Of a DNA stretch of 64,000 nt, positions 8,284 to 20,136 are shown piece by piece (position 1 is the first letter of the stretch; each line of letters opens with the position of its first letter). The position numbers were made by a program, and so were the translations under genes. The DNA is from a virus. Under the pieces are notes generated by a model, which saw nothing but the letters and a program-made list of their open reading frames with translations, was not told the DNA's origin and did not search any database. The stretch is from the IMG/VR virus record IMGVR_UViG_3300048919_000048, positions 1 through 64,000 of that record, one strand, 5' to 3'.

Positions 8284-8312
8284 ATTATGGGGCCTTTCGG
8301 CCCCCTTGTCAA
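8284..8312 (-). promoter_or_regulatory. promoter with palindromic spacer (class A)
   Basis: Minus-strand -35 TTGACA (8312-8307), 17-nt spacer and -10 CATAAT (8289-8284). The spacer carries GGGGGCC-GAAA-GGCCCC. It begins 4 nt after the stop of the upstream gene, so the palindrome may also end that transcript. Confidence 0.8.
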
Positions 8313-8315
8313 CGA

Positions 8316-8687
8316 TTAATTTAAATCCAGGTTCAGGGCCAGATCCACCAGGGCGGCGATCTGCTGTTCGTTAGCGATGCGGCCCACAACCCAACGAATA
8401 TAAATTTTAATCAATAATTCTTTGTTGCTGGCAAAACCCGGATGGTTCAAAAGGTCTTTTTTGCGGAATTTGTCCTCAGTAGCGAGAGTCATCACGCCGC
8501 CTTTGTACTCAATGGAGATCTGTAAACCATTGTCAAAGGTCGCCATAAAATAGTTTTCAAAGGTAACAGTTTCAACGTGTAACTTTGCGCCGCCTACGTG
8601 CTGTTGCATTTCGAACGAACGATCATAACCGAAATGATTTGCTTGCTCATCGCGGATGTAGTAGCGGTTGAAGTTGGTCAGGTTCAT
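8316..8687 (-). CDS. hypothetical protein
   Basis: A 123-residue monocistronic gene with GAGGAGA before its ATG. It combines beta-like segments (ETVTFENYFMATFDNGLQIS) with a C-terminal helix (NEQQIAALVDLALNLDLN). No family recognised. Confidence 0.75.
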   Translation of the reverse strand: MNLTNFNRYYIRDEQANHFGYDRSFEMQQHVGGAKLHVETVTFENYFMATFDNGLQISIEYKGGVMTLATEDKFRKKDLLNHPGFASNKELLIKIYIRWVVGRIANEQQIAALVDLALNLDLN

Positions 8688-8739
8688 TTTACTGTCTCCT
8701 CTTTGTGGGCCGTCGCGTCATTGCCGCCCTACGTGATAA

Positions 8740-8767
8740 ATAATACCACAATGGCGGATCGATGCAA
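8740..8767 (-). promoter_or_regulatory. sigma70 promoter
   Basis: Minus-strand -35 TTGCAT (8767-8762), 16-nt spacer and -10 TATTAT (8745-8740). It lacks the palindrome seen in neighbouring promoters. Confidence 0.6.
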
Positions 8768-9021
8768 TAGGGAGAATTGTAAAGTTTTGTCAACGTAAAC
8801 CCGGCTTTCAGCCCTTCAGGTCTAACATAAAATTTTCACGTTTGCAAGGGCAAAAAGTGCGAAAGTCCGATTTCGGGAGATCTATATTTTTATGATGTAG
8901 GATACCGGGTAAGGGGAAAACGGCTTAAAACGCGTTTTAGAGCGTTTGGCGGGCATGTACATTTATACAGTGGAGTGAAATAAATTTGACAACGGTTTGA
9001 AAGTATGTACTTGATTTGATT

Positions 9022-9040
9022 GGGAATGATAACCATTCTC
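9022..9040. promoter_or_regulatory. Fur-box-like palindrome
   Basis: GGGAATGATAACCATTCTC matches 15 of 19 positions of the Fur consensus. It lies just outside the left 30-bp repeat, as similar sites lie just outside the right copy. Confidence 0.5.
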
Positions 9041-9077
9041 ATTTGCCCAGCGCGGCCCAGGTCCGGTCCGCCTCCCT

Positions 9078-9107
9078 GAATAGCGGGCAGGTCCGGTGTT
9101 TGTCTCC
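9078..9107 (-). repeat. 30-bp inverted repeat, left copy
   Basis: On the minus strand this reads GGAGACAAACACC...CCGCTATTC and is identical over 30 nt to 19601-19630 on the plus strand. It lies downstream of an outward promoter (9137-9166). The pair brackets the array of small genes. Confidence 0.8.
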
Positions 9108-9136
9108 CCCTGCATCAGGTGCCATCGCATGACATA

Positions 9137-9166
9137 AGAATAACAAAAAAGGGGCGAACAAGTCAA
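9137..9166 (-). promoter_or_regulatory. terminator-promoter fusion (class C)
   Basis: Minus-strand TTGACT (9166-9161), 18-nt spacer and TATTCT (9142-9137). The -35 lies in the loop of a GGGG...CCCC-TTTTTT terminator hairpin serving the gene ending at 9191. The device recurs at 22765-22794. The transcript would run left through the 30-bp repeat. Confidence 0.65.
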
Positions 9167-9190
9167 CCCCTGGAAACACTGTTTATTTGA

Positions 9191-9532
9191 TCAGCACTTT
9201 GTTGCTGTTCGCTGGTGGTCTATGGCGATCCGTTTCTCTGCGATACCGTCCAGGGCTTCGGCTTCGTACCCATCGCAGCGAATGTAAAATAATGCGTTGT
9301 CAATCTCTTTTATCTTCTCCAGAAGATCGGCCCGGCGGGCTTCTAACAGGTCATCAAGGGATCGCAGGGCGGCGGGGATTGTCTCCCCGGTAGCCTCAAC
9401 ATAACCCCGGCCCGATCCTGGCAATGACCCGGCGGCGGTGGATGCCGTCCAGCGCCCACGGATTGACCAAAACACTTTAAAGCCGTTTCCGCTAAAAATG
9501 TGATTCTTTATGACGTGACAAAAGCGGATCAT
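9191..9532 (-). CDS. hypothetical protein
   Basis: A 113-residue protein, last gene of a three-gene unit. Residues ~45-85 (AALRSLDDLLEARRADLLEK) are helical and charged, possibly a short coiled coil. No SD motif was clear, but the start overlaps the previous stop. Function unknown. Confidence 0.7.
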   Translation of the reverse strand: MIRFCHVIKNHIFSGNGFKVFWSIRGRWTASTAAGSLPGSGRGYVEATGETIPAALRSLDDLLEARRADLLEKIKEIDNALFYIRCDGYEAEALDGIAEKRIAIDHQRTATKC

Positions 9533-9723
9533 ATCTCACCCCCGATAAAGTCGGATCGGTCGCTGTCTCTCATGCGGTCGTTTAATTCCTTCAGGGTGGC
9601 GATCCCGTTTTCGGCATCTTTCGCCAGGCATGACCCGGCATAGGTTGGATCACTCCCCAGGCGCAAGCGGTGAAGGTAACGCAAGGCGGCTAACGTTTGG
9701 CGGATCTCGGATTCTGTGATCAT
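9529..9723 (-). CDS. small helical protein
   Basis: A 64-residue protein (MITESEIRQTLAALRYLHRL). ATG 9723 is chosen because it overlaps the stop of the upstream gene (ATGA) and follows GAGGG. Function unknown. Confidence 0.65.
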   Translation of the reverse strand: MITESEIRQTLAALRYLHRLRLGSDPTYAGSCLAKDAENGIATLKELNDRMRDSDRSDFIGGEI

Positions 9724-9893
9724 GGTTCGGCCCTCGGATGGCTCATATTTACCCCGATGAATGGGAAGTGTGCCAGATCGCAAGGCTTCAGCGTTTCATG
9801 CCTTGCCCACATACCAGATCCACGGCGGAAAAGTACCCGGTTACGGCTTATGCGGTAAAAGTTCCCGTTTTCTAAATTCTGATACCAAATCAT
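9720..9893 (-). CDS. 57-residue basic protein
   Basis: Open frame with ATG 9893, GAGG ~10 nt upstream and a stop overlapping the next ATG. It starts MIWYQNLENGNFYRISRNRV and ends in a Pro-rich tail. The coupling and a promoter 50 nt upstream support it. Function unknown. Confidence 0.6.
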   Translation of the reverse strand: MIWYQNLENGNFYRISRNRVLFRRGSGMWARHETLKPCDLAHFPFIGVNMSHPRAEP

Positions 9894-9940
9894 TCTCGTT
9901 TACCTCATTTGCGGGGAGATGTTCCCGGCCTATGTGAGAC

Positions 9941-9969
9941 ATTATCGGCCCTATTGCGCCAGGTGTCAA
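9941..9969 (-). promoter_or_regulatory. sigma70 promoter sharing the upstream stop codon
   Basis: Minus-strand TTGACA (9969-9964), 17-nt spacer and GATAAT (9946-9941). The TGA stop of the upstream gene (9968-9966) lies inside the -35 box. Confidence 0.8.
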
Positions 9970-10427
9970 CCCCGGATCATGAAAAATTTTATTTTGTGGT
10001 GCATACCGTAAAGCCAATCGTGAAAAGCCGGGCCGCGCTCATTAACGGTGTTATACGGCCCCCTGAGCGCTTTTTGATCCTGGTCTGTGGGTAGCCATTC
10101 CCGGCCCTCAATAACCATCATAAAACGCTCCAGATAGTACACATACGCCCCGCACTCAGTAAAGATCACCTTGTTTGCTCGGATGTATGGGATCAGATAG
10201 GTATCCCCCAGATCCCGGATCTTATTGTGGGCACTTTGCCCGTTGATGAATCGGCGGATGTGATACGGGTCGTTTATTGCCCGGTGAATGTTCACCAGGT
10301 AGTCACCCCGTAAGGCGTTGATGTCTCTTTTACGCCATAACGCCACACTTGCAGCAATATTCCGGCGGGCTTCAGCCTGCGCCGCCGGGGTCAGTTCGTC
10401 GTAATACTTCAGATCTGTAAGGTTCAT
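9966..10427 (-). CDS. hypothetical protein
   Basis: A 153-residue protein, third gene of the unit starting at 10901. It begins MNLTDLKYYDELTPAAQAEA, and basic and aromatic residues are common throughout. Its stop codon forms part of the next promoter. No family recognised. Confidence 0.75.
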   Translation of the reverse strand: MNLTDLKYYDELTPAAQAEARRNIAASVALWRKRDINALRGDYLVNIHRAINDPYHIRRFINGQSAHNKIRDLGDTYLIPYIRANKVIFTECGAYVYYLERFMMVIEGREWLPTDQDQKALRGPYNTVNERGPAFHDWLYGMHHKIKFFMIRG

Positions 10428-10819
10428 TATTCCACCTCAATAAACCCGGCATCGTTGATAAACAGATTTTTTGACCCGAAAGTCTGCGCCACGTCGTGAA
10501 GTTTGTCACCGATTGACCCAAGCCCGCGATCCCAGAATCCCACGCCGTGACCTTGACGGCTAAACCATAGATCCCGGCCTGCTTGGGTGTGATCATAGTC
10601 AACCCCCGCCAGCATTGCCCCTTTGAGTAACAGCGGCGCAACGTCCATAAAGCGGGCACAATCCATGCGGGAGGCGTCCAGCGCTTCAGCGCTTAACTCA
10701 TACCCGGCCAGGTTTTCGATCTCTTCACCGTCGCTATCGGTGGCAGTCTCTGCAAATAACATCGCCTCAATGTAACCAGCGATAAAAGCGTTTAAGTGTA
10801 AAGCGTTGAAAGTAGTCAT
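10427..10819 (-). CDS. conserved phage protein of unknown function
   Basis: A 130-residue protein. The pattern AGVDYDHTQAGRDLWFSR followed by GHGVGFWDR resembles a small uncharacterised protein I recall from unrelated phages. The His/Asp-rich motif might be catalytic or metal-binding, but no function is known to me. Overlaps the next gene by 1 nt. Confidence 0.8.
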   Translation of the reverse strand: MTTFNALHLNAFIAGYIEAMLFAETATDSDGEEIENLAGYELSAEALDASRMDCARFMDVAPLLLKGAMLAGVDYDHTQAGRDLWFSRQGHGVGFWDRGLGSIGDKLHDVAQTFGSKNLFINDAGFIEVE

Positions 10820-10823
10820 TTTA

Positions 10824-10901
10824 TTAGTATCCCATTTTTACACAGATTGCGGTTGCGGATGCGATTGCTACGAAAACAGATACCAGGAAGATTACGCTCA
10901 T
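10824..10901 (-). CDS. 25-residue membrane peptide
   Basis: ATG 10901 follows AGAGAG. The product MSVIFLVSVFVAIASATAIC is a single hydrophobic span with a short polar end. It is the first gene after the promoter at 10950-10979. Confidence 0.6.
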   Translation of the reverse strand: MSVIFLVSVFVAIASATAICVKMGY

Positions 10902-10949
10902 TTTGTTTCTCTCTTTGTTTGTTGTGGTCTGTTGTGACCCGATGAAAAG

Positions 10950-10979
10950 AGTATAGCCCGTAACGCTTCCCGGCGTCAA
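10950..10979 (-). promoter_or_regulatory. sigma70 promoter
   Basis: Minus-strand TTGACG (10979-10974), 18-nt spacer and TATACT (10955-10950). It begins just after the stop of the gene at 10993. Confidence 0.8.
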
Positions 10980-10992
10980 CTTTATTTTTAAA

Positions 10993-11352
10993 TTATTTTT
11001 GTGCCACTTCCAGCGCGGCCCGGCGGGCTTTTGCGTCATCGCGTAGCGCTTTCATCTCTTTGATAGTGTCGGCAATGGTGCGGCCCACGGCGCAAGCTAA
11101 AAGCCACACGTGCGGCCCTTTCAGGTCGTGATCTTTGTAAAGCCCTTGCGATGTTACAGTAAGCCCCAAGCGGGAAGCGGCCTTGTGATCCGGCATTTCA
11201 AAAATTTGTTTTACTTCTTTGAAGGTCAAACGTTTGAAGTTAAGCCCACGGATCACGGCAGTAGCGGCGCGGACAATTCCATCCAGTTCGTTTTTGCTGC
11301 ACTCGAACAGGGTGATTTTGTACATTGGTTCCCACGGGGTGTATTTGCTCAT
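10993..11352 (-). CDS. hypothetical protein
   Basis: A 119-residue monocistronic gene. It has a Lys-rich central helical region (FKRLTFKEVKQIFEMPDHKA), a C-terminal helix rich in Arg/Ala and an AGAGAGATCGTAAA leader. A DNA-binding role is possible but unproven. Confidence 0.75.
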   Translation of the reverse strand: MSKYTPWEPMYKITLFECSKNELDGIVRAATAVIRGLNFKRLTFKEVKQIFEMPDHKAASRLGLTVTSQGLYKDHDLKGPHVWLLACAVGRTIADTIKEMKALRDDAKARRAALEVAQK

Positions 11353-11404
11353 TTTACGATCTCTCTTCTGTTTGTGGGCGGCGTTGTGTCGCCCTATGTG
11401 TTAC

Positions 11405-11433
11405 ATTATGGGGCCTAACGTCGGCCCCGTCAA
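11405..11433 (-). promoter_or_regulatory. class A promoter
   Basis: Minus-strand TTGACG (11433-11428), 17-nt spacer holding GGGGCC...GGCCCC, and CATAAT (11410-11405). The leader contains GGGCG...CGCCC just before the ribosome site. Confidence 0.85.
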
Positions 11434-11436
11434 TAA

Positions 11437-11691
11437 TTATTTTGCACCAACCATAAAACAGGCGGATTCGAAAGCATTACGGGCGCGGCGTTCACCGTAG
11501 CGGATTTTTCCGAAACCAGTTTTTGACGTGCGGCCCGTTTGGATAATTTCGTAGCACTCCCCGCCGTTGTGGATAAGGGACACGATAAACAGTTCCGACA
11601 TCTTGCGAGCGATCACGCCTTGCGCCTCCAGCGGTGGCAATTTGTTAGACGGGGCCTTGCGGGTGAAAAGTGATTTGATGAATTTTAACAT
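11437..11691 (-). CDS. small basic protein
   Basis: An 84-residue protein with a basic N-terminus (MLKFIKSLFTRKAPSNKL) and a basic region near FGKIRYGERRARNAF. It may be amphipathic or membrane-associated. Function unknown. Monocistronic. Confidence 0.7.
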   Translation of the reverse strand: MLKFIKSLFTRKAPSNKLPPLEAQGVIARKMSELFIVSLIHNGGECYEIIQTGRTSKTGFGKIRYGERRARNAFESACFMVGAK

Positions 11692-11725
11692 TTTGTGATT
11701 CTCTCTATTCGTTTGGTGTGGTGGT

Positions 11726-11755
11726 ATTATGGGGCCTAAGCGGCCCCGGCGTCAA
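11726..11755 (-). promoter_or_regulatory. class A promoter
   Basis: Minus-strand TTGACG (11755-11750), 18-nt spacer with GGGGCC-GCTTA-GGCCCC, and CATAAT (11731-11726). Confidence 0.85.
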
Positions 11756-11762
11756 CTACTTT

Positions 11763-11969
11763 TTATTTTATTTCTTCGTCGCCTTTCCACTGCGAATAGG
11801 TTTTAAAAGCTTCGTGTAAGTGTGGGGTAACTTCGGACAGCAGGACCGCGCCGCGATCACTTACAGCGGTCACCTGGTAGTGATCCGCACGGCGGGACGT
11901 GTCACCGCAAGCGGACAGGGTAACAGTAACATCAATCAGGCGGGACTTTTGCAGAATCATTGTAATCAT
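11763..11969 (-). CDS. small beta-rich protein
   Basis: A 68-residue protein; ATG 11969 follows GAGGAG. It is beta-like with a single Cys (LIDVTVTLSACGDTSRRADH) and ends acidic. Function unknown. Confidence 0.7.
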   Translation of the reverse strand: MITMILQKSRLIDVTVTLSACGDTSRRADHYQVTAVSDRGAVLLSEVTPHLHEAFKTYSQWKGDEEIK

Positions 11970-11999
11970 TTTACGATCTCCTCGTGTTGGTGTGGGGTC

Positions 12000-12028
12000 A
12001 TTATCGGCCCTTTCGGGCCGGGCGTCAA
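12000..12028 (-). promoter_or_regulatory. class A promoter
   Basis: Minus-strand TTGACG (12028-12023), 17-nt spacer with GGCCC-GAAA-GGGCC, and GATAAT (12005-12000). Confidence 0.85.
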
Positions 12029-12029
12029 G

Positions 12030-12185
12030 CTAATTTTTACCAAATCGTAAATGTTTTTTCGCCATAGCGCGGGCCGTTGCTTTACTATGCCCCGCCTCCT
12101 GATAATAGCGGGTTAAGCGGTCCAAAGTTTCGCGGCGGTCCGCCTTGCTCGGGTAAGCGGTGATTAAGAGTTTATGCGGGTTCAT
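12030..12185 (-). CDS. 51-residue basic protein
   Basis: ATG 12185 overlaps the stop of the gene upstream (ATGA). The product (MNPHKLLITAYPSKADRRET ... FGKN) is very basic and helical, which would suit nucleic-acid binding. Function unknown. Confidence 0.65.
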   Translation of the reverse strand: MNPHKLLITAYPSKADRRETLDRLTRYYQEAGHSKATARAMAKKHLRFGKN

Positions 12186-12478
12186 AAGGTGGCCCCCGCC
12201 GGGATCGTGTCGTTTACCAGGGTGGCGATCGCCTCTTTGATGTAGTCCGCCGGAAGTGGGTCGCTTTTGCTCTGAATATAGCGCCGCCCGTTGTAAATGA
12301 CATCGTAAGAGATCACAAAGTCCGCGCCGTGGCGGTCAACGTTGATTTGCAGGCGGTTCGGCTCTTTGTCATCCATATGACGACAAATGATCTGCACGGT
12401 GCCCGCTACGTTGGACATTGACGCCACGACGTGATCAGCCACGCCGGACAGGATGAAAAGGGTGTTTGCTTTTTGCAT
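12182..12478 (-). CDS. hypothetical protein
   Basis: A 98-residue protein; ATG 12478 lies about 30 nt after the promoter. Strands such as VADHVVASMSNVAGTVQIIC and a DRHGADFVISYDVIYNGRRY segment suggest a beta domain. Function unknown. Confidence 0.7.
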   Translation of the reverse strand: MQKANTLFILSGVADHVVASMSNVAGTVQIICRHMDDKEPNRLQINVDRHGADFVISYDVIYNGRRYIQSKSDPLPADYIKEAIATLVNDTIPAGATL

Positions 12479-12508
12479 TTTTGTAGCCTCGTTTGTTTGT
12501 GTTCGGTC

Positions 12509-12538
12509 ATTGTAAGCCGGGACGATGCCCGGCGTCAA
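12509..12538 (-). promoter_or_regulatory. class A promoter variant
   Basis: Minus-strand TTGACG (12538-12533), 18-nt spacer with CCGGG...CCCGG, and TACAAT (12514-12509). Confidence 0.8.
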
Positions 12539-12541
12539 CAA

Positions 12542-12721
12542 TTATTTTGAATTTTTCGCCGGGAGTGGTTCCCGGAAATAGCGGCGGATCTGCGCTGCTG
12601 TTAGGCGGGCGTCAGCCTGCAATGACTTCAGCGGATAGGGGCGGTTGGCTATAAAGGTATGTTGACCGCAGCCATTGCCGATCACGATGTCAACTAGGGC
12701 GAAAAGTAAAGATGATTTCAT
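12542..12721 (-). CDS. 59-residue protein, possible signal or membrane start
   Basis: ATG 12721 overlaps the upstream stop (ATGA). A short hydrophobic start (MKSSLLFALVDIVIG) precedes a basic C-terminal part. It could be anchored or exported, but the hydrophobic stretch is short. Confidence 0.6.
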   Translation of the reverse strand: MKSSLLFALVDIVIGNGCGQHTFIANRPYPLKSLQADARLTAAQIRRYFREPLPAKNSK

Positions 12722-12960
12722 TTTGCAGCCCCTTCTAAGGTGATTTCAACAATTTTAGCTGTTGCTTGCTCTTCGGTGATTTCGACGGCCCCGATCACGT
12801 CGTGATCTGTCAGGTCGGACGGCTTAAAGCCGGGACGGTAAAGCCAGCCCTTTCGCCCATCGGGGAGACTGTTTGACCAGCGGTAGATCTTCGGATATTC
12901 CCCGGAGGTTTCAGAATCTTCTAAACGGTAAAGGTTGTTTGTAACAAAATAACGTGTCAT
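12718..12960 (-). CDS. small protein, unknown function
   Basis: An 80-residue protein, first in a two-gene unit. Tyr/Trp-rich N-terminal half (YPKIYRWSNSLPDGRKGWLY) and an acidic helical C-terminus (VEITEEQATAKIVEITLEG). No family recognised. Confidence 0.7.
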   Translation of the reverse strand: MTRYFVTNNLYRLEDSETSGEYPKIYRWSNSLPDGRKGWLYRPGFKPSDLTDHDVIGAVEITEEQATAKIVEITLEGAAK

Positions 12961-12996
12961 GTTTTTGGCCTCGTTTGCCTGTTTGGTATGTCTGAC

Positions 12997-13025
12997 ATTA
13001 TCGGCCCTTTCGGGCCGGGTGTCAA
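12997..13025 (-). promoter_or_regulatory. class A promoter
   Basis: Minus-strand TTGACA (13025-13020), 17-nt spacer with GGCCC-GAAA-GGGCC, and GATAAT (13002-12997). Its core is nearly identical to the promoter at 12000-12028. Confidence 0.85.
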
Positions 13026-13028
13026 CGT

Positions 13029-13388
13029 TTATTTTTCATTTTTCACACGATAGAAAATGCGATAGGCGCGGCGCTTGCCGGGGCCGTATTGTGTGGTTAT
13101 GTATTCCAGTTCATACCCAAGCAAGCCTAAGCGGTGAAGGGCGGCACTTGCGCCGTCATTGTGTGACTGTTCGCGGCGATAAGGGGAGGTTAAGATCTCC
13201 AGCTCATTGGCGGCGGCGTACCAGTTTAAAACGGTTTGTTCGTCGCCTGAGACAAGCGCGGCGCGGTATTTGTTGATTGTGTTCCCGTTGATATCACGGG
13301 AAAAATCGAAAGTCTCCAGCGTAAGGAATAGATCACCATTCACCAGGAGATCAGGACGGGCGGCGATTGCTTCAGCGTATGATTTCAT
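13029..13388 (-). CDS. hypothetical protein
   Basis: A 119-residue protein with helix-rich N-terminus (SYAEAIAARPDLLVNGDLFL) and basic C-terminus (YGPGKRRAYRIFYRVKNEK). Monocistronic. Function unknown. Confidence 0.75.
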   Translation of the reverse strand: MKSYAEAIAARPDLLVNGDLFLTLETFDFSRDINGNTINKYRAALVSGDEQTVLNWYAAANELEILTSPYRREQSHNDGASAALHRLGLLGYELEYITTQYGPGKRRAYRIFYRVKNEK

Positions 13389-13431
13389 TTTATTGCCTCA
13401 TTCGGTGGCGTTTCGTTTGTCTATGCCGGAG

Positions 13432-13461
13432 ATTATAACCCCGGCATAATTCAAGCGTCAA
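13432..13461 (-). promoter_or_regulatory. promoter with palindrome around the -10 (class B)
   Basis: Minus-strand TTGACG (13461-13456), 18-nt spacer and TATAAT (13437-13432). ATGCCGG...CCGGCAT flanks the -10. Confidence 0.85.
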
Positions 13462-13464
13462 CAA

Positions 13465-13686
13465 TTATTTTTCAACTACCAACTGATAGCCCGCTTCAAT
13501 GTTGGAAAACACGATCCGCCCGTCCTGGCGTTCACTCATAAGCACACAAGGCGATAACATACGCTCTTCAGCTTTACAATCAGCATAAGCGGCGCGGATG
13601 TCGCCTGGCTTTTTGTCTTCAGTGGTGAAAGTGTCATTGATAAACACGTTGCCAGATACCAGGGTAATAATTGCGAAAGTGATCAT
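13465..13686 (-). CDS. small protein with a hydrophobic start
   Basis: A 73-residue protein beginning MITFAIITLVSGNVFINDTF, possibly an export signal or single span, followed by a polar domain with two Cys. It could be periplasmic. Function unknown. Confidence 0.65.
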   Translation of the reverse strand: MITFAIITLVSGNVFINDTFTTEDKKPGDIRAAYADCKAEERMLSPCVLMSERQDGRIVFSNIEAGYQLVVEK

Positions 13687-13730
13687 TTTGTGCCTCGTTT
13701 GGTGGTTTGCTTTCGTTTGTCTATGCCGTC

Positions 13731-13760
13731 ATTGTAAGGGACGGCATAACCACACGTCAA
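13731..13760 (-). promoter_or_regulatory. class B promoter sharing the upstream stop codon
   Basis: Minus-strand TTGACG (13760-13755), 18-nt spacer and TACAAT (13736-13731). ATGCCGTC...GACGGCAT flanks the -10. The TGA of the next gene upstream (13757-13759) lies within the -35. Confidence 0.85.
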
Positions 13761-13909
13761 GCGTTTTGTAGATAAAGTTTTGTGCCCCGTGGGAGGCGTG
13801 ATCCGTAACCTTCTCGATCACGTAGGCGCTTTCTTGCATCCTGTTCATCATAGCCGAAAACTTTAAGCGGGCCAGCCACACCGGGGATATTTACAAGATA
13901 ATGTTTCAT
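13757..13909 (-). CDS. 50-residue basic protein
   Basis: ATG 13909 is used because the open frame above it runs into the promoter. Contains LVNIPGVAGPLKVFGYDEQD followed by an Arg-rich segment. KVFGYDEQDA resembles GVFGYSDEDVK in the gene at 25000-25242, a possible shared motif. Confidence 0.65.
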   Translation of the reverse strand: MKHYLVNIPGVAGPLKVFGYDEQDARKRLRDREGYGSRLPRGTKLYLQNA

Positions 13910-13940
13910 TTGGTTGTCTCTTTTGTTTGGGTCTGTGGGT

Positions 13941-13969
13941 ATTATGGGGCCTAACGCGGCCCCGGTCAA
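13941..13969 (-). promoter_or_regulatory. class A promoter
   Basis: Minus-strand TTGACC (13969-13964), 17-nt spacer with GGGGCC-GCGTTA-GGCCCC, and CATAAT (13946-13941). Confidence 0.85.
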
Positions 13970-13972
13970 GAA

Positions 13973-14407
13973 TTATTTTTGATAATTTTTCATTCTTACG
14001 GCGTTGTGTTCGGCGGCTTTTACCCAAGCGCCGGGGATAGTGTCGGCGCGGCTTACGAATTCACCACAAAAGCGGGTAACATACAAGGCCCCGCAAGGAT
14101 CGCCGGAAAATTCACGGGTCACGGTGTAGCGCTTATCCTTTTTGATTGTGCGGATCACTTCCCCGAAAAGCTGATTGACAAGCGCGGTCCATTGTGTGCG
14201 GGCGGCGCCGATCTGGTCTTCAACAACCCATTCGATCCGGCCTACATCATCAAAATCGTGTGCCTTAACGTGAAACGCGCCGTGTTCCATGAAAAGCTGC
14301 ACCCGGATATTGTTGCCCGTGATCTTTGTGTCGATCTCTTGGACATAACCGCAAGCCAGCGCGTAAACGGATAAGCCTGCTTTGATACGGAAAATTGGGG
14401 AAGTCAT
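13973..14407 (-). CDS. hypothetical protein
   Basis: A 144-residue protein; its leader has a GCGACGC-type hairpin and GAGAGA ribosome site. Mixed alpha/beta with KRYTVTREFSGDPCGALYVT near residue 100. No family recognised. Confidence 0.75.
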   Translation of the reverse strand: MTSPIFRIKAGLSVYALACGYVQEIDTKITGNNIRVQLFMEHGAFHVKAHDFDDVGRIEWVVEDQIGAARTQWTALVNQLFGEVIRTIKKDKRYTVTREFSGDPCGALYVTRFCGEFVSRADTIPGAWVKAAEHNAVRMKNYQK

Positions 14408-14457
14408 AACGGTCTCTCTTCTGTTAGTGCGGCGCGGTGTGCGTCGGTATGTGGTAG

Positions 14458-14486
14458 ATTATGGGGTAACCGGGGCCATAGGTCAA
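14458..14486 (-). promoter_or_regulatory. class A-like promoter
   Basis: Minus-strand TTGACC (14486-14481), 17-nt spacer with GGCCCCGGTTACCCC, and CATAAT (14463-14458). Confidence 0.8.
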
Positions 14487-14510
14487 GCCCCGGAATGAAA
14501 ATATTTTAAA

Positions 14511-14738
14511 TTATTTCACGGTAACCCGGATCGCCTCAATCGTCGCCACGGTGGCCGGGTCAACAATCAGGGCCTGAGAGGTGGAGATCTTCACCCCTTC
14601 ACGCGCTGCAATGGCGGCTAATGACTTCGAGGTTATACGGTAGCCTTTGCCGTCCGTTACCAGGTAAAGGCAGGTAAAGCCCATCGGGCGACCTGCTAAC
14701 AGGCGGATAAATTCTGTCATGCTGTAAAGGTTTTGCAT
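14511..14738 (-). CDS. small protein, unknown function
   Basis: A 75-residue protein. ATG 14738 (GGGG ~8 nt upstream) is preferred to ATG 14750, which lacks a site. Contains YLVTDGKGYRITSKSLAAIA, then a beta-like C-terminus. Function unknown. Confidence 0.7.
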   Translation of the reverse strand: MQNLYSMTEFIRLLAGRPMGFTCLYLVTDGKGYRITSKSLAAIAAREGVKISTSQALIVDPATVATIEAIRVTVK

Positions 14739-14755
14739 TGTGTACCCCATAGATC

Positions 14756-14785
14756 AAAAATAAGGGGCCTATGCGGCCCCCTGTG
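14756..14785 (-). terminator. intrinsic terminator with the class A palindrome
   Basis: Minus-strand GGGGCC-GCATA-GGCCCC followed by TTATTTTT. It is the same palindrome used in class A promoters, but here with a U-tract instead of a -10. This suggests the promoter palindromes derive from terminators. Confidence 0.85.
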
Positions 14786-14825
14786 CGGTTTAAACGGTTT
14801 GGCCTGGTGTTTCCATGCCGGGCGC

Positions 14826-14960
14826 TTACTCCCAGTTATAGCGCGTTTTACGACGCTGTTGTTTGTTAGCTTTGTCACGTTGCAGGCGCTCGCCTGCTTC
14901 AGCGTATGACAGGCGGGCCGGGCGGGTCTGTTTGTCACGGTTGATATTAGTCTGAATCAT
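14826..14960 (-). CDS. 44-residue Arg/Lys-rich protein
   Basis: ATG 14960 overlaps the upstream stop. The product (MIQTNINRDKQTRPARLSYA ... YNWE) is highly basic and Gln-rich (NKQQRRKTR), so nucleic-acid binding is plausible. Function unknown. Confidence 0.6.
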   Translation of the reverse strand: MIQTNINRDKQTRPARLSYAEAGERLQRDKANKQQRRKTRYNWE

Positions 14961-15274
14961 TTGTAACCTCTTCTCTGTTTGCGTTTATCGTGCATATATT
15001 GGCGCTCATCGATCACGTCGTGGATCTCCTCAATATCCGGGGAGAATTTTTCGTAAGTGATCACGGCCCCCAACTGTTGGCGGTAGTTAATAGCCCCGAT
15101 GGCGTCAATCTCTTGCATCGGCCCATAATCGCGGGACGTTTCGATCTCCCCGTTGTACTCATATTCAAAGTAGCCAAACATTCTATTTTTACGCCTCCAG
15201 CGGCGTCGGTTGTAAAGTTTGGCGGCGTAGCCAACCGCCACCACTAAACCCAAGATGACCAGAATCGTGATCAT
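14957..15274 (-). CDS. membrane-anchored protein
   Basis: A 105-residue protein with an N-terminal span (ITILVILGLVVAVGYAAKL), then RRRWRRK (positive-inside) and an acidic cytoplasmic domain. Coupled to both neighbours. Function unknown. Confidence 0.75.
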   Translation of the reverse strand: MITILVILGLVVAVGYAAKLYNRRRWRRKNRMFGYFEYEYNGEIETSRDYGPMQEIDAIGAINYRQQLGAVITYEKFSPDIEEIHDVIDERQYMHDKRKQRRGYK

Positions 15275-15636
15275 TCAATAACCCCATACTTACGGCCCAA
15301 GATGACCAGCGAACCCGCCAAACGTGTCCAATATTGATCTAACTCCCATTCCTCCTGGCCTGCTGTAGTGTGGAAGTTAATGTAACCCCAGTCGGTTAAA
15401 AGATCAATGATCTCGTGATTCATGAAAGCATGATTGATTGATGTCGGCAGTCCCCGGAGATATTCAGTGATGGCGCGTTGCATACCCAGGCGGCTAACTT
15501 CGTGCCCATATTCAGACTGAAGGGTATCAAAGAAAAATTTAAGCTTTTCGGACTCGGTGCCTTCAAAGTCGATAACAGATAAAACATATTCACGAACATA
15601 ACGAGTAGCGGCGGTGTTTTTGGTGGTAGTAGTCAT
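15271..15636 (-). CDS. hypothetical helical protein
   Basis: A 121-residue protein, first of a three-gene unit with a GCGACGC/GCGCCGC leader hairpin. Contains YGHEVSRLGMQRAITEYLRG and later EIIDLLTDWGYINF. Soluble and helical. Function unknown. Confidence 0.75.
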   Translation of the reverse strand: MTTTTKNTAATRYVREYVLSVIDFEGTESEKLKFFFDTLQSEYGHEVSRLGMQRAITEYLRGLPTSINHAFMNHEIIDLLTDWGYINFHTTAGQEEWELDQYWTRLAGSLVILGRKYGVIE

Positions 15637-15687
15637 TTTACGGTCTCTCTTCTGTTAGTGCGGCGCGGTGTGCGTCGCTTCGGTGGT

Positions 15688-15717
15688 ATTATAGGCCGGG
15701 AGTTTTCCCGGCGTCAA
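15688..15717 (-). promoter_or_regulatory. class A promoter variant
   Basis: Minus-strand TTGACG (15717-15712), 18-nt spacer with CCGGG-AAAACT-CCCGG, and consensus -10 TATAAT (15693-15688). Confidence 0.85.
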
Positions 15718-15720
15718 CAA

Positions 15721-15930
15721 TTATTTTAAACTATTTGCGAGGCGGTCGATCCCAGCGCTTAGTTTAGTGTGCTGGGTAGCCTCCAGTAAAACGGATACCT
15801 GCATCAAAATATTTTCAGCCTGTTCTGGGTACAACTCAACAACCAGATTAAAGGCGGCGCGGGAACCGTCACGGATCGCCACCTGGTAAGCCTCATGTTT
15901 AACGTCGTTTACTTGCTGTTCGTTGATCAT
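15721..15930 (-). CDS. small helical protein
   Basis: A 69-residue protein that is helical throughout (NEQQVNDVKHEAYQVAIRD, AENILMQVSVLLEATQ). Monocistronic. It could form a small helical bundle; no function assigned. Confidence 0.7.
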   Translation of the reverse strand: MINEQQVNDVKHEAYQVAIRDGSRAAFNLVVELYPEQAENILMQVSVLLEATQHTKLSAGIDRLANSLK

Positions 15931-15962
15931 GGTGTGGATCTCTTTTCTGTTGGTGTGCGGGT

Positions 15963-15992
15963 ATTATGGGGCCTAACCCGGCCCCGTGTCAA
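15963..15992 (-). promoter_or_regulatory. class A promoter
   Basis: Minus-strand TTGACA (15992-15987), 18-nt spacer with GGGGCC-GGGTTA-GGCCC, and CATAAT (15968-15963). Confidence 0.85.
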
Positions 15993-15998
15993 CCACAA

Positions 15999-16379
15999 TT
16001 ATAAATCTTTTTTGCGGCTTACGTCGTACACGTTTTCAGTGTAGACTACCCCGAGATCCGCCGCCGCCTGGCAAGCATAAACCATTTTGCGCCACTTTGC
16101 CGGGGCATCCTTCACCGCCTCGATCATCGCACTCAGGGCGGTTTGTTCAAATCCGCGCTCATATCCATAAGCATAGCCAACATAGGCTAGGTCAATCCAG
16201 ATGTCCCCGCACTTATTCCCGTATTGGTTAGCGCCTAAACGGTCAGCCACTTCAACGGATACCAGCGCCGCCACGCTTGCGCTGTGGTAAGTATTCCCGG
16301 CACTACGTTGGAACCAACGTTTACCAGTTACGGAAATTTCTTTGATCTCGTTAGCGTTTACAGTGTTGATGATATTCAT
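15999..16379 (-). CDS. hypothetical protein
   Basis: A 126-residue protein with an aromatic, Gly-rich centre (LAYVGYAYGYERGFEQTALS) and helices on both sides. Not recognised. Monocistronic with its own promoter. Confidence 0.75.
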   Translation of the reverse strand: MNIINTVNANEIKEISVTGKRWFQRSAGNTYHSASVAALVSVEVADRLGANQYGNKCGDIWIDLAYVGYAYGYERGFEQTALSAMIEAVKDAPAKWRKMVYACQAAADLGVVYTENVYDVSRKKDL

Positions 16380-16431
16380 CGTTTACTATCCTTTCGGTTT
16401 GGTTGTTTGCTTTCGCTTGCCTATGCCGGGG

Positions 16432-16461
16432 ATTGTATACCCCGGCAGAAACCAGCGTCAA
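16432..16461 (-). promoter_or_regulatory. class B promoter sharing the upstream stop codon
   Basis: Minus-strand TTGACG (16461-16456), 18-nt spacer and TACAAT (16437-16432). TGCCGGGG...CCCCGGCA flanks the -10. The TGA of the gene at 16458 lies within the -35. Confidence 0.85.
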
Positions 16462-16688
16462 GCGGATTTAATGATATTATCAAAAAATTCCTGTGGGCGG
16501 GTCTCGCAGCCTTTTCCGGCCCAAGCGTTAACATGCCTTGAGGTGGTTGCGCTGTGCTTTGTGGCGGTTACCAGGTAGCCTTCACCGGGCAGGTATGCCG
16601 CTACCGGGGTGTTGTAAGAGAAGAAAACCTGTGAGCCGTCCGCCAGGGTAATCATGGTTTGGTTTGCGCCGATAGTAGTCAGATTCAT
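16458..16688 (-). CDS. conserved small phage protein (SYxTPVA type)
   Basis: A 76-residue protein. DGSQVFFSYNTPVAAYLPGE followed by a TTSRHVNAW motif resembles a family of uncharacterised phage proteins I have seen with SYxTPVA...TTSxHxxxW. Probably a small beta-rich domain. Function unknown. Confidence 0.75.
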   Translation of the reverse strand: MNLTTIGANQTMITLADGSQVFFSYNTPVAAYLPGEGYLVTATKHSATTSRHVNAWAGKGCETRPQEFFDNIIKSA

Positions 16689-16728
16689 TTTGTAAGCCTC
16701 GTTTGCTTGTCTGTTTGGTATGTCTGGT

Positions 16729-16757
16729 ATTATGGGGCCTAACCCGGCCCCGGTCAA
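16729..16757 (-). promoter_or_regulatory. class A promoter
   Basis: Minus-strand TTGACC (16757-16752), 17-nt spacer with GGGGCC-GGGTTA-GGCCCC, and CATAAT (16734-16729). Confidence 0.85.
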
Positions 16758-16769
16758 CAACTATTTTAA

Positions 16770-17015
16770 TTAATTTGCAAAATATGGAGCCATTGCTGAG
16801 GCGGTAGGGCTTACGGTTATCTGAGAATCAATCAGATATTCCACGTTGTCAATTCTTACAGTGTCGATTGAGTGATTACTGAAAGGTTTACTTTTTACCT
16901 TTCTAACTACCGTCCGGCGGCGGTTACCTTTCATCTCTTCGAGTTGAATCCAGGCATATCCTTTATCATTCATGAAAATTTCATTATGATGGGTAATTGT
17001 GGAAAGCTTTTTCAT
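16770..17015 (-). CDS. small basic protein
   Basis: An 81-residue protein. The N-terminal part (STITHHNEIFMNDKGYAWIQ) is followed by a basic stretch GNRRRTVVRKVKSKP, suggesting nucleic-acid contact. Monocistronic. Function unknown. Confidence 0.7.
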   Translation of the reverse strand: MKKLSTITHHNEIFMNDKGYAWIQLEEMKGNRRRTVVRKVKSKPFSNHSIDTVRIDNVEYLIDSQITVSPTASAMAPYFAN

Positions 17016-17067
17016 ACTGTTACCTTTTGGTTTTGGCGGCGGGTTATTCCGTCGCCCTATGTGATAC

Positions 17068-17096
17068 ATTATGGGGGTAACGCCGCCGGGCGTCAA
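17068..17096 (-). promoter_or_regulatory. class A-like promoter
   Basis: Minus-strand TTGACG (17096-17091), 17-nt spacer and CATAAT (17073-17068). The leader holds a GGGCGAC...GCCGCC hairpin before the ribosome site. Confidence 0.85.
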
Positions 17097-17114
17097 CCCC
17101 CTAAACGAAAATAA

Positions 17115-17465
17115 TTAATAAAAAGATCCGCCGGGGCTTACAGGATCGATCCGCCCGCCATTGTCCAGGATGCAACGGATCACGGCGTCGCCCATTGCTT
17201 TACATTCTGCCCAGGTTGGCGCTAGAATTTCGATGTAAGGCCAGCAGGCCGCGCCACCTGGAAAGTGGGACGTCTCCGCCTCTTTGCTTGTCTCCGCGCC
17301 TTCGGCGGCCCGGCTAACAAGATCATTAAGCTGGTCCCATTCCGGGTACGGGTGTTTTTCGTCGCTGTCATCGCTTAACCATTCCCCGGCCAGCGGGTGG
17401 CAATCGTAAGATATTGAGCAACGGAAAAGCGGCGTGATCTGTACAGTGGGGATCTGTTTGGTCAT
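17115..17465 (-). CDS. hypothetical protein
   Basis: A 116-residue protein; ATG 17465 follows GGAG. It has four Cys, a Ser/Glu-rich centre and a C-terminal part with AECKAMGDAVIRCILDNGGR. It follows the terminator at 17481-17502 without an obvious promoter of its own. Confidence 0.7.
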   Translation of the reverse strand: MTKQIPTVQITPLFRCSISYDCHPLAGEWLSDDSDEKHPYPEWDQLNDLVSRAAEGAETSKEAETSHFPGGAACWPYIEILAPTWAECKAMGDAVIRCILDNGGRIDPVSPGGSFY

Positions 17466-17480
17466 GGTACTGACTCCACA

Positions 17481-17502
17481 CGAAAGGCCCCCGCCGGGGG
17501 CC
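17481..17502 (-). terminator. intrinsic terminator
   Basis: Minus-strand GGCCCCC-GGC-GGGGGCC hairpin followed by TTTCG, in the 45-nt gap after the gene at 17512. The U-tract is short, so some readthrough to the next gene is likely. Confidence 0.75.
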
Positions 17503-17511
17503 TGCAATTGG

Positions 17512-17733
17512 TTAGCGGTGAGTGTTACGGGAAAGTGTGCCGCCGTTATGCTTTGCGCCAACGTGCCAGCCGTCCGCCTTTTTGGTTGGCGTTGTGGGGG
17601 TCACGCCAGCGGCGCGTAAACGGTTAGCAACGGCGCGGGCATCGTCACGGGTACGATAAGCGGGCAGGGTGGCAACCGCCGCCAGATTAACAGAGGAAAC
17701 GCCACGTGATTTTTTATAGATTACTTTTGCCAT
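17512..17733 (-). CDS. small basic protein
   Basis: A 73-residue protein (MAKVIYKKSRGVSSVNLAAV) with Arg-rich helices (RDDARAVANRLRAAG) and TPTTPTKK linker. Possibly nucleic-acid binding. Monocistronic. Confidence 0.7.
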   Translation of the reverse strand: MAKVIYKKSRGVSSVNLAAVATLPAYRTRDDARAVANRLRAAGVTPTTPTKKADGWHVGAKHNGGTLSRNTHR

Positions 17734-17782
17734 TTTCTTTACTCTCTGATTTTGCCGGGCACCATTTGCCGGGCTTGTTTGT

Positions 17783-17811
17783 AGTATGGGGCCAGGTGGC
17801 CCCGGTGTCAA
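17783..17811 (-). promoter_or_regulatory. class A promoter
   Basis: Minus-strand TTGACA (17811-17806), 17-nt spacer with GGGGCC-ACCT-GGCCCC, and CATACT (17788-17783). Confidence 0.85.
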
Positions 17812-17814
17812 CAA

Positions 17815-18252
17815 TTATTTTACGATAGTTACAGATTTATATTCCTGCTCTGCACTCATGCCGCCGCTACTGTTGGCGCGGAGGATCTCCAGGTGGGCAG
17901 GCATCCAGCCAGTAGAGCGACCCACAATAAAGCGGCGCTTTTCGCCGTACATGGTGATCACTTCTACCCGGCGACCCTCCAGGCCTTTCAATTGCTTAGT
18001 GAGACCAGCAAGACAGCGCTTGCCCGTGCGGGCATGATAGGCACAACCAGCGGAGATCATATCCTGGCAGGCTTTATAATGCTTTTTTGTGCCCTTGCGA
18101 TATGGGAGATCCTCAACTGTTGCACCTTCAGATTCTAACCATTGTTTAACCTTACGGGCGTTTCTGTCCAGGACTTCGAACCCGTAGCAGGTAAAGCCGT
18201 TGCCACACTTCAGGACATACAGTTTTTGCTCTTTGTTGATTGAATGTAACAT
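17815..18252 (-). CDS. conserved phage protein of unknown function
   Basis: A 145-residue protein. The pattern YVLKCGNGFTCYGFEVLDR, then GLEGRRVEV, RRFIVGRSTGWMPAHLEI and SSGG resembles a widespread uncharacterised phage protein. The C-terminal part looks like a small beta barrel. Monocistronic with a leader hairpin. Confidence 0.8.
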   Translation of the reverse strand: MLHSINKEQKLYVLKCGNGFTCYGFEVLDRNARKVKQWLESEGATVEDLPYRKGTKKHYKACQDMISAGCAYHARTGKRCLAGLTKQLKGLEGRRVEVITMYGEKRRFIVGRSTGWMPAHLEILRANSSGGMSAEQEYKSVTIVK

Positions 18253-18305
18253 GATAACGATCTCTCTTTTGTTTATGCGGCGCGGTGTGCGTCGCTATGT
18301 GGTGA

Positions 18306-18334
18306 ATTATGGGGCCTATCGTCGGCCCCGTCAA
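18306..18334 (-). promoter_or_regulatory. class A promoter
   Basis: Minus-strand TTGACG (18334-18329), 17-nt spacer with GGGGCC-GACGATA-GGCCCC, and CATAAT (18311-18306). Confidence 0.85.
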
Positions 18335-18337
18335 GCA

Positions 18338-18583
18338 TTATTTTTTAAAAGGCCAATTATTTTCTTCAGCCCAAGAAACGGATAAAACTTCACCTTTTAC
18401 CAGCTCCCACTCCCAGAAAAGCCCTTTGTGCTCAATGTAAGCATACGTTACCAAAGTTCCGTTCTGGTCAACATCCGAAAGGTGGTGGATCTTCCCGTAT
18501 CGGCGTACATCTTTGTAAGCCTCGTCTAATGAAATATTATTTTTATACTTTACGGCGGCGATCAATTGGTTTTTCGTAAACAT
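18338..18583 (-). CDS. small protein, unknown function
   Basis: An 81-residue protein with helical N-terminus (NQLIAAVKYKNNISLDEAYK) and aromatic C-terminus (HKGLFWEWELVKGE). Monocistronic. Function unknown. Confidence 0.7.
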   Translation of the reverse strand: MFTKNQLIAAVKYKNNISLDEAYKDVRRYGKIHHLSDVDQNGTLVTYAYIEHKGLFWEWELVKGEVLSVSWAEENNWPFKK

Positions 18584-18613
18584 TTTACTGACTCCGTTTG
18601 TTGGTGTGGTTGT

Positions 18614-18643
18614 ATGATAAGCCGGGACGGTTCCCGGCGTCAA
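18614..18643 (-). promoter_or_regulatory. class A promoter variant
   Basis: Minus-strand TTGACG (18643-18638), 18-nt spacer with CCGGG-AACCGT-CCCGG, and TATCAT (18619-18614). Confidence 0.8.
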
Positions 18644-18650
18644 CAACATT

Positions 18651-18983
18651 TTAAATCTTTTTGTAATTTAATTTTGTGCTTTCCCGGTACGGCTTGCCCG
18701 TGGTCATATCGTAAATGACATAATGCCCGGCGCGGTCCGCCTGTTGCAGGGTAACGGCGCGATCCTCACACTGTTTGACGCCACCAATATAAACCGGGTC
18801 CAAATCGGACAGCTTAACAGCGCCCACACCAGGGAGGATCTTAAACACGGCATAGCCACGATCCACACTATCGAACCCGGCGAACCATTCCCGGCGGTTC
18901 TCTTCTTTATTGTAGCGGCAGGCGCGGATCTGCCCGGCGTGGGCGGCGGCGTTACCTTCAATAAAATATTTCGTCTGTTGCAT
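18651..18983 (-). CDS. hypothetical protein
   Basis: A 110-residue protein. The N-terminus (MQQTKYFIEGNAAAHAGQIR) suggests a strand then helix; Arg-rich region NKEENRREWFAGF follows. No family recognised. Monocistronic. Confidence 0.75.
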   Translation of the reverse strand: MQQTKYFIEGNAAAHAGQIRACRYNKEENRREWFAGFDSVDRGYAVFKILPGVGAVKLSDLDPVYIGGVKQCEDRAVTLQQADRAGHYVIYDMTTGKPYRESTKLNYKKI

Positions 18984-19011
18984 CGGTCGATCTCCTTGTT
19001 TGTGAGCGCTT

Positions 19012-19040
19012 ATTGTGGGGCCTTGTAGGCCCCGTGTCAA
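19012..19040 (-). promoter_or_regulatory. class A promoter
   Basis: Minus-strand TTGACA (19040-19035), 17-nt spacer with GGGGCC-TACAA-GGCCCC, and CACAAT (19017-19012). It abuts the TAG stop of the gene at 19041. Confidence 0.8.
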
Positions 19041-19301
19041 CTAATACCAGCCTCTTTGATGTTGTAGGACGCCAAACCAATAAGAAATTAACATAATCCC
19101 GTCAAGGTCCTCCGGCTTGCCAGATAAACGGCCTTGCGACGATTCCCAAGCGCCACGGCGGCGGGGTGTATTGTGAGCGCAATAGTCTACCGTGTGCAAA
19201 TCCAATACCTGATCCACGGTCAAGCCCGTGGCGCTGGCTACTTGGTGAACCGTGCCGCCTTGCCAGCCTAGCGCCTTCATTAAATATTCTGTATTGGTCA
19301 T
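19041..19301 (-). CDS. small protein with a possible helix-turn-helix
   Basis: An 86-residue protein. GGTVHQVASATGLTVDQVLD has the spacing of a helix-turn-helix (helix, GL turn, recognition helix), so DNA binding is a candidate role. It is the first gene of the array. Not assigned to a known family. Confidence 0.7.
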   Translation of the reverse strand: MTNTEYLMKALGWQGGTVHQVASATGLTVDQVLDLHTVDYCAHNTPRRRGAWESSQGRLSGKPEDLDGIMLISYWFGVLQHQRGWY

Positions 19302-19330
19302 TTTACGGCCTCCTTTGTTGGTGTGCCTGC

Positions 19331-19359
19331 ATTGTGGCCCGGCTTGCCTGGCAGGTCAA
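19331..19359 (-). promoter_or_regulatory. sigma70 promoter
   Basis: Minus-strand TTGACC (19359-19354), 17-nt spacer and CACAAT (19336-19331). It has a GCCAGGCAAGCCGGGC spacer rather than the usual perfect palindrome. Confidence 0.75.
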
Positions 19360-19383
19360 CAAAAATTTATTTTATTTTGGGTA

Positions 19384-19412
19384 TTGACGCCCGGCGGGCC
19401 AGGGTCCATAAT
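19384..19412 (+). promoter_or_regulatory. outward plus-strand promoter
   Basis: TTGACG (19384-19389), 17-nt spacer and CATAAT (19407-19412), close to the class A consensus. No gene follows, so it may drive an untranslated RNA. Confidence 0.6.
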
Positions 19413-19545
19413 GATCACATACAGGAAAGGACACGCCACCCCACGGCGAAAAGGCGGGGCTAACGTACCGGGCACCGGGGCCAGGTCGGAAGGTGGATCG
19501 CCGGGAGTTCGTCTAAAATAGTTTCGTAAAGAAACGTAAAGACGC

Positions 19546-19574
19546 TTGCAACCGGGGCGGGCCGGGGCTATATT
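19546..19574 (+). promoter_or_regulatory. outward plus-strand promoter
   Basis: TTGCAA (19546-19551), 17-nt GC-rich spacer and TATATT (19569-19574). The transcript would start near 19581 and run through the 30-bp repeat and the Fur-like palindromes. Confidence 0.6.
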
Positions 19575-19600
19575 ATACACATAGCGGGGAGAATTGACCC

Positions 19601-19630
19601 GGAGACAAACACCGGACCTGCCCGCTATTC
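19601..19630 (+). repeat. 30-bp inverted repeat, right copy
   Basis: Identical over 30 nt to the minus strand of 9078-9107. Six bases beyond it lies a Fur-like palindrome, mirroring the left side. Confidence 0.8.
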
Positions 19631-19635
19631 TGGAG

Positions 19636-19652
19636 ATGAGAATGATTCTCAT
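19636..19652. promoter_or_regulatory. perfect Fur-like palindrome
   Basis: ATGAGAAT-G-ATTCTCAT is a perfect 8-1-8 inverted repeat of the TGAGAATNATTCTCA form found among Fur-type sites. Confidence 0.5.
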
Positions 19653-19667
19653 TCAACAACCTGAATG

Positions 19668-19745
19668 CGAATGATTATCAGTTGCATTTGCAAATGAGAA
19701 CGATTCTCATTCCGCCCCGGGCGAGACGAGAATGATAACGATTTG
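19668..19745. promoter_or_regulatory. cluster of Fur-like sites
   Basis: GCGAATGATTATCAG (19668-19682), ATGAGAA-CGA-TTCTCAT (19694-19710) and a GAGAATGATAACGATTT site (about 19729-19745) follow in close succession, with CATTTGCAAATG between them. Confidence 0.45.
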
Positions 19746-19775
19746 CATTTCGATTTTCACCTCTGTATAGATTTT

Positions 19776-19955: not shown

Positions 19956-20136
19956 TCAAATTTCTTGATGGTTCATAACTCCAGTATTGTAACGTTTATG
20001 TACCATTAGTGGTGCATAAGCCCCCGAATGTAACATTTATGGTGCAACATGTGCTGATCCCGTGTGGGGTGTGCTGGTACATTGGCGAATAAATCTGAAA
20101 AAGAAATCGGATCTGAGTTCCCGCCCGGCGGGCCAT

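Follow-up and report, generated by a model that had tools for sequence, protein, structure and literature searches.

Between positions 8284 and 19359 of a stretch of Certrevirus-like phage DNA, a row of minus-strand promoters, about one per gene, carries GC-rich hairpins nested in or around the promoter core. It is likely, in our view, that such a hairpin belongs to the 3' end of the mRNA of the gene upstream and sits inside the sigma70-type promoter of the next gene. The stretch, hereafter the window, comprises bases 1-64,000 of the 151,943-base virus record IMGVR_UViG_3300048919_000048. Its early region is most similar to the Certrevirus phages (Vequintavirinae) CR9, phiTE, CB7, POP15, F1M1E and others, and over one large protein the nearest named relative is Cronobacter phage CR9 (98.5%). 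An Rfam search of the window gave no match.

The promoters themselves have been known since the 2020 paper on phage CB7, which described a putative Certrevirus early promoter, AAAA(N3)TGTTGAC(N)TATAAT, in CB7, CR3, CR8 and CR9 (PMC7344957). The window holds these same promoters, and genus and early region agree as well: they lie among short early genes and have an A-rich upstream block, TGTTGAC, N17 and a TATAAT-like -10. About two dozen TTGAC promoters on a common plan had been proposed by the sequence-only reading, an earlier interpretation of this DNA made from its letters alone, and we located 23, at positions 8312 to 19359. All 23 have TTGAC, a spacer of 17-18 nt and a -10 that matches TATAAT at 4-6 of its six bases, as sigma70-type promoters do, and the promoter usually begins 15 nt or less past the preceding stop codon. 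The nested hairpins are the new part, and we found no earlier report of them. The CB7 paper's main text lists terminators separately and mentions no palindromes or inverted repeats (PMC7344957), and the rV5 paper likewise lists promoters and terminators separately. A search for overlapping promoter/terminator designs in the open-access literature, which leaves many journals outside, found no report of nested hairpins.

The hairpins fall into three classes. In class A (14 of the 23 array promoters) the hairpin lies wholly in the spacer, with stems of 6-7 bp formed by GGGGCC/GGCCCC, CGGCCC-GAAA-GGGCCG or GCCGGG/CCCGGC. In class B (3 of 23: 13461, 13760 and 16461) the -10 is in the hairpin loop, and in class C the -35 is inside the hairpin (3 of 23: 9166, 14486 and 17096, and weakly in two more, 9969 and 10979). 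No good hairpin was found at promoter 19359 or at promoter 8767 (-35 TTGCAT), which follows a non-coding gap. The sequence-only reading had recognised palindromes in the spacer and around the -10 and had missed the third class; the plain terminator that it described with the same palindrome is present, its position now corrected from 14756 to 14780-14764. The features are as follows.

8284-8312, minus strand: class A promoter; hairpin 8289-8304, GGGGCC-gaaa-GGCCCC, in the spacer
9138-9171, minus strand: promoter with its -35 inside a GGGG/CCCC hairpin (9150-9171) followed by TTTTTT, terminator-like
9941-9975, minus strand: weak class C promoter; hairpin 9959-9975 (-6.6)
10951-10979, minus strand: weak class C promoter; hairpin 10961-10978 (-5.4), the same degenerate form being retained in relatives
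11405-11433, minus strand: class A promoter; hairpin 11410-11428
11727-11755, minus strand: class A promoter; hairpin 11731-11747
12000-12028, minus strand: class A promoter; hairpin 12005-12020, CGGCCC-gaaa-GGGCCG
12510-12538, minus strand: class A promoter; hairpin 12516-12533, GCCGGG/CCCGGC
12997-13025, minus strand: class A promoter; hairpin 13002-13017, CGGCCC-gaaa-GGGCCG
13421-13461, minus strand: class B promoter; hairpin 13421-13449, loop holds the -10
13721-13760, minus strand: class B promoter; hairpin 13721-13749, loop holds the -10
13941-13969, minus strand: class A promoter; hairpin 13946-13963
14458-14493, minus strand: class C promoter; hairpin 14470-14493, loop holds the -35
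14764-14780, minus strand: plain intrinsic terminator without promoter, GGGGCCGCATAGGCCCC + TTATTTTT, GGGGCC stem
15689-15717, minus strand: class A promoter; hairpin 15695-15712, GCCGGGA/TCCCGGC
15964-15992, minus strand: class A promoter; hairpin 15968-15985
16424-16461, minus strand: class B promoter; hairpin 16424-16447, TGCCGGGG-tatacaat-CCCCGGCA, loop holds the -10
16729-16757, minus strand: class A promoter; hairpin 16734-16751
17068-17101, minus strand: class C promoter; hairpin 17073-17101, GGGGG/CCCCC enclosing the -35 and spacer
17783-17811, minus strand: class A promoter; hairpin 17788-17803
18306-18334, minus strand: class A promoter; hairpin 18311-18329
18615-18643, minus strand: class A promoter; hairpin 18621-18638, GCCGGGA/TCCCGGC
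19012-19040, minus strand: class A promoter; hairpin 19017-19033
19331-19359, minus strand: the array's first promoter; lacks a strong hairpin (-4.5) and has no clear same-direction gene ahead
22766-22801, minus strand: promoter whose -35 is part of a true terminator's stem, GGGGTTGAC-ttcg-GTCAGCCCC-TTTT
28739-28771, minus strand: class B-like promoter outside the array, GGGCCAT/ATGGCCC flanking the -10
59915-59944, plus strand: class A promoter, GGGGCC-gaaa-GGCCCC

These hairpins are far more frequent than chance would give. The folding energies of the 23 cores add up to -353 kcal/mol; 200 shuffles averaged -208, and the lowest of them reached -243. From the early regions of 12 Certrevirus phages and the window (13 regions) we extracted 274 promoters preceding a start codon, and found that 72% have a single hairpin of -9 kcal/mol or lower overlapping the core, compared with 1.7% of hexamer-keeping shuffles and 11% of random windows from the same loci. 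These hairpin promoters comprise 131 of class A, 40 of class B, 23 of class C and 4 others. In stability and GC-richness the array hairpins resemble those of intrinsic terminators.

When orthologous promoters were matched via the downstream protein, the pairing was found to be kept where the sequence had changed. GGGGCC and GCCGGG stems are swapped between orthologous promoters in ortholog clusters 0, 2, 3, 7 and 15: for the gene behind 16757 the promoter stem is GGGGCC/GGCCCC in the majority of phages and GCCGGG/CCCGGC in CB7, the opposite swap is seen in POP15 for the gene behind 12538, and in P7_Pc the gene behind 11433 has a compensated GGGTC/GACCC stem. For class B, we aligned the flank-sharing promoters of Certrevirus, Seunavirus (GEC_vB_MG), Mydovirus (KPP-1) and contig G003. 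On a 9-pair helix, 97.6% of the alignment cells pair and 7 of the 9 pairs have changed on both sides, that is, by compensatory base change; the covariation score was 0.501, versus 0.135 when shuffled and at most 0.194 with the partner slid. No shared recognition sequence at a fixed place was found among the promoters, whose many stem sequences occupy three registers and are swapped between orthologs. Since the stems vary widely, swap between orthologs and change compensatorily, it is pairing and not sequence that has been retained, which argues for a structure and against an operator.

Pairing also reaches into the promoter itself. For most class A copies, the 3' arm of the stem ends on the first base of the -10, which is T in the consensus. 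This base is a C facing G in 86 promoters and a G facing C in 13, and in 32 further promoters a T just beyond the called stem faces an A; it is unpaired in only 7. As the first -10 base tracks its stem partner, pairing overrides the promoter consensus.

The hairpin is associated with the gene upstream. Counted from the stop codon of the gene upstream, the -35 begins at a median of 3 nt and the hairpin at about 11 nt. With open reading frames (ORFs) that have a ribosome site, the end of a same-direction gene precedes 184 of 198 hairpin promoters versus 42 of 76 others, and the association holds by ortholog cluster (25/1 versus 6/7, p = 0.0007). Most of the promoters without such a gene ahead have no hairpin. 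The contrary cluster 16 arose because the ORF caller missed short upstream genes, which are annotated, for example at 14957-15112 in KaOmega with the promoter at 15113. The gene behind 19040 offers a further contrast. In the window its promoter has a strong hairpin (-12.8) and is preceded by an 86-amino-acid gene (19041-19301), whereas in ten relatives it is the first promoter of the array that stands before this gene or its homolog, and the hairpin there is weak or missing (-2.5 to -8.6). A homolog of the 86-amino-acid gene, 54% identical, is present in phiTE and CB7 as well, but on the other strand, beside the head of the array. This contrast points the same way, to a hairpin that belongs to the upstream gene.

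The 86-amino-acid gene itself is found widely, in Stephanstirmvirinae and also in other phages. At 19331-19412, where the array begins, promoter 19359 on the minus strand and promoter 19384 on the plus strand (TTGACG..CATAAT) form a divergent pair, with -35 boxes about 25 bp apart and a strong hairpin in neither. Two intervals, 19413-20260 and 8767-9190, have no clear genes, bordering promoters without hairpins and no Rfam match; in several relatives 19413-20260 corresponds to some 900 nt in which no gene is annotated.

Some junctions hold evident terminators. The hairpin at 22794 is an unmistakable terminator that contains the -35, with a terminator score (d) of about 35, and it is retained in most relatives whose stretch covers the site; 9166, a -35-containing hairpin with a U-tract, is a second clear copy. 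Standard U-tract terminators occur elsewhere in the window, including the one at 14780 with the GGGGCC stem. Most of the array hairpins have no U-tract directly after them. One follows only at some junctions, such as 22794 outside the array. We conclude that the 3'-end element terminates in some copies and that the others more likely terminate weakly, or cap and protect a processed end. In Escherichia coli, trimming by exonucleases has been described for 3' ends generated by Rho (PMC7815308).

Some further observations concern terminators and leaders. Canonical terminators at 17486-17502 and 14764-14780 (minus strand) stand just before a start codon with no intervening promoter, and the genes downstream of them may rely on read-through. 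A possible attenuator lies at 27420-27487 (minus strand), where a promoter precedes a strong terminator (GGGGTCATCTTTCGGGATGGCCCC TTTTTC) close to the beginning of a 532-amino-acid ORF. The leaders, considered as Rho-utilization (Rut)-like elements for a Rho model, were A/C-rich but not clearly G-poor (A 281, C 171, G 119, T 39), and such elements are not claimed.

The design extends beyond Certrevirus. The exact class A motif is found in IMG/VR mostly on Certrevirus-like contigs, and had no match in a collection of bacterial and archaeal genomes. Hairpin promoters also occur in Seunavirus, Mydovirus, rV5 and contig G003, in smaller numbers per genome and with different stems. The same layout occurs with a U-rich -10, TTTATTAT, in a phage contig of about 91 kb, G001, which had no DNA match in the phage collection, and in a 95-kb contig, L038 (L040 8666-11440, L038). 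The TTGACA-hairpin-TTTATTAT junctions of these two contigs score about +18 to +25 as terminators, and their promoter/terminator fusion is probably independent in origin. In the Stephanstirmvirinae phage BME3 (an Escherichia phage, L051), 15 of 16 tandem TTGACA promoters have no hairpin; a hairpin is therefore not required by such promoters, and this similar promoter run serves as a useful comparison provided by nature.

We propose that an RNA polymerase started upstream would pass the stop codon and, usually some 5-20 nt further on, transcribe a GC-rich hairpin of 6-12 bp built from the spacer of the next promoter or from sequences on either side of that promoter's -10 or -35. The RNA hairpin would then define and protect the end of the upstream mRNA. 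Where a usable U-tract follows (22794, 9166 and some GCCGGG copies then TTATAAT), it would terminate transcription; elsewhere the most likely effect would be pausing or weak termination together with a block to 3'-to-5' exonucleases after cleavage. A transcript from the same promoter would start past the hairpin, or in its 3' arm for class B, and so would not carry the structure. The outcome would be units of nearly one gene and one promoter with no separate intergenic space.

RNA is likely to be the acting molecule, as suggested by tetraloops of the GNRA or UNCG type, which under strand-symmetric stem rules occur in 10 distinct hairpins on the sense strand and in none on the antisense strand. 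Several results weigh against the proposal or parts of it. C(GNNA)G loops can be stable in DNA too, and the summed folding energies of the two strands are alike (sense -353, antisense -372), lending no support to RNA. A comparison of GU with AC departures, intended to separate RNA from DNA, gave 26:7 under biased detection and 7:7 when made strand-symmetric, and was dropped. The score d is positive in 26% of class A copies, 48% of class C copies and 0 of 40 class B copies. Under a looser ORF rule the association with an upstream gene gave p = 0.125; significance is lost there because that rule assigns an "upstream ORF" to 31% of random positions.

Two rival explanations also concern the upstream transcript. 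Possibly, though we would say so only tentatively, the hairpins are mainly true terminators, each efficiently stopping the upstream polymerase, with the A/T-rich -10 replacing the U-tract and perhaps with NusA/NusG or a phage factor assisting. The class C copies with a U-tract, exemplified by 22794, the high-scoring junctions of the unrelated contigs G001 and L038, and the use of the same GGGGCC stem as a plain terminator at 14780 all fit this explanation, but the median d of -4 in class A and -31 in class B, where no copy is positive, does not. The hairpins might instead serve mainly in mRNA 3'-end protection or processing, with read-through, cleavage or Rho termination downstream and trimming back to the hairpin, an explanation to which we give a modest chance. 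Strong hairpins without a U-tract about 5-21 nt past the stop codon, notably those of class B, speak for it, and trimming of Rho-generated ends is known from E. coli (PMC7815308), yet the U-tract copies and G001 indicate termination at least sometimes in this design, and no processing site was found. The sequence-only reading had likewise suggested terminators fused to promoters at the end of the previous gene. Conservation of structure alone, the upstream same-direction gene, the sense-strand GNRA/UUCG loops and the true terminators at 22794 and 9166 support a terminator-like hairpin in that place; for most copies an actual terminator is less certain, the tail being weak in class A and absent in class B.

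The remaining explanations place the function in DNA. The palindromes might be operators at which a dimeric regulator of the phage or the host binds to switch the early promoters in concert; the sequence-only reading, too, raised operators for a palindrome-binding regulator. The commonest stem, GGGGCC/GGCCCC (79 of 131 class A copies), would suit this role by its position, where a repressor could act. We regard it as improbable, given the many unrelated stems, the three registers, the free variation and swapping of stems between orthologous promoters, the compensatory changes and a first promoter without a hairpin. It is also quite unlikely that cruciforms or single-stranded DNA hairpins adjust promoter activity or, in the manner of N4, are recognised by a polymerase of the phage. 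Palindromes in or around the core are in keeping with such structures, and the symmetric wobble test is compatible with DNA, but the GNRA/UUCG loops are on the sense strand only, the hairpin moves from the -35 to the -10 while the sigma70-like hexamer pair stays, and neighbouring promoters, like 15 of the 16 tandem ones in the Stephanstirmvirinae phage BME3, do without it. A profile search for a phage RNA polymerase (PF00940) gave no match, but its control was also unmatched. For CB7, the absence of an RNA polymerase gene has been reported (PMC7344957).

The nested hairpins resemble several known elements without coinciding with any of them. With intrinsic (Rho-independent) terminators they share a GC-rich hairpin soon after the stop codon and, in some copies, a U-tract, but most copies here have no U-tract and are built into a promoter. 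Intercistronic hairpins that protect 3' ends, of the repetitive extragenic palindromic (REP) type, also lie between genes without a U-tract, and in them too pairing outweighs sequence; the hairpins here are much shorter, number one per junction and contain the promoter core. In E. coli the frd terminator/ampC attenuator reportedly overlaps the neighbouring transcription unit, so that, as here, one element ends one transcription unit and starts the next, but that is a single case, whereas here the arrangement is repeated genome-wide with the hairpin inside the -35/-10 core. In the early promoters of phage N4, DNA hairpins that are short and fixed overlap the promoter and serve the virion RNA polymerase; here a sigma70-like hexamer pair is combined with a variable hairpin that some promoters do not have.

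If our proposal is right, a single piece of 30-40 bp both ends one gene and starts the next. It is an even call whether this piece, the 3'-end hairpin plus the next gene's promoter, forms an exchangeable unit per gene that is selected for RNA pairing at a cost to promoter consensus, is used across Vequintavirinae and has arisen independently in an unrelated phage. Such an element would explain the dense packing of dozens of separately driven small genes and their exchange as cassettes, and would be a natural test of the extent to which the promoter consensus can yield to RNA structure. It would also offer a ready-made compact insulator part, and would mean that promoter and terminator predictors that handle the two separately misread genomes of this kind.

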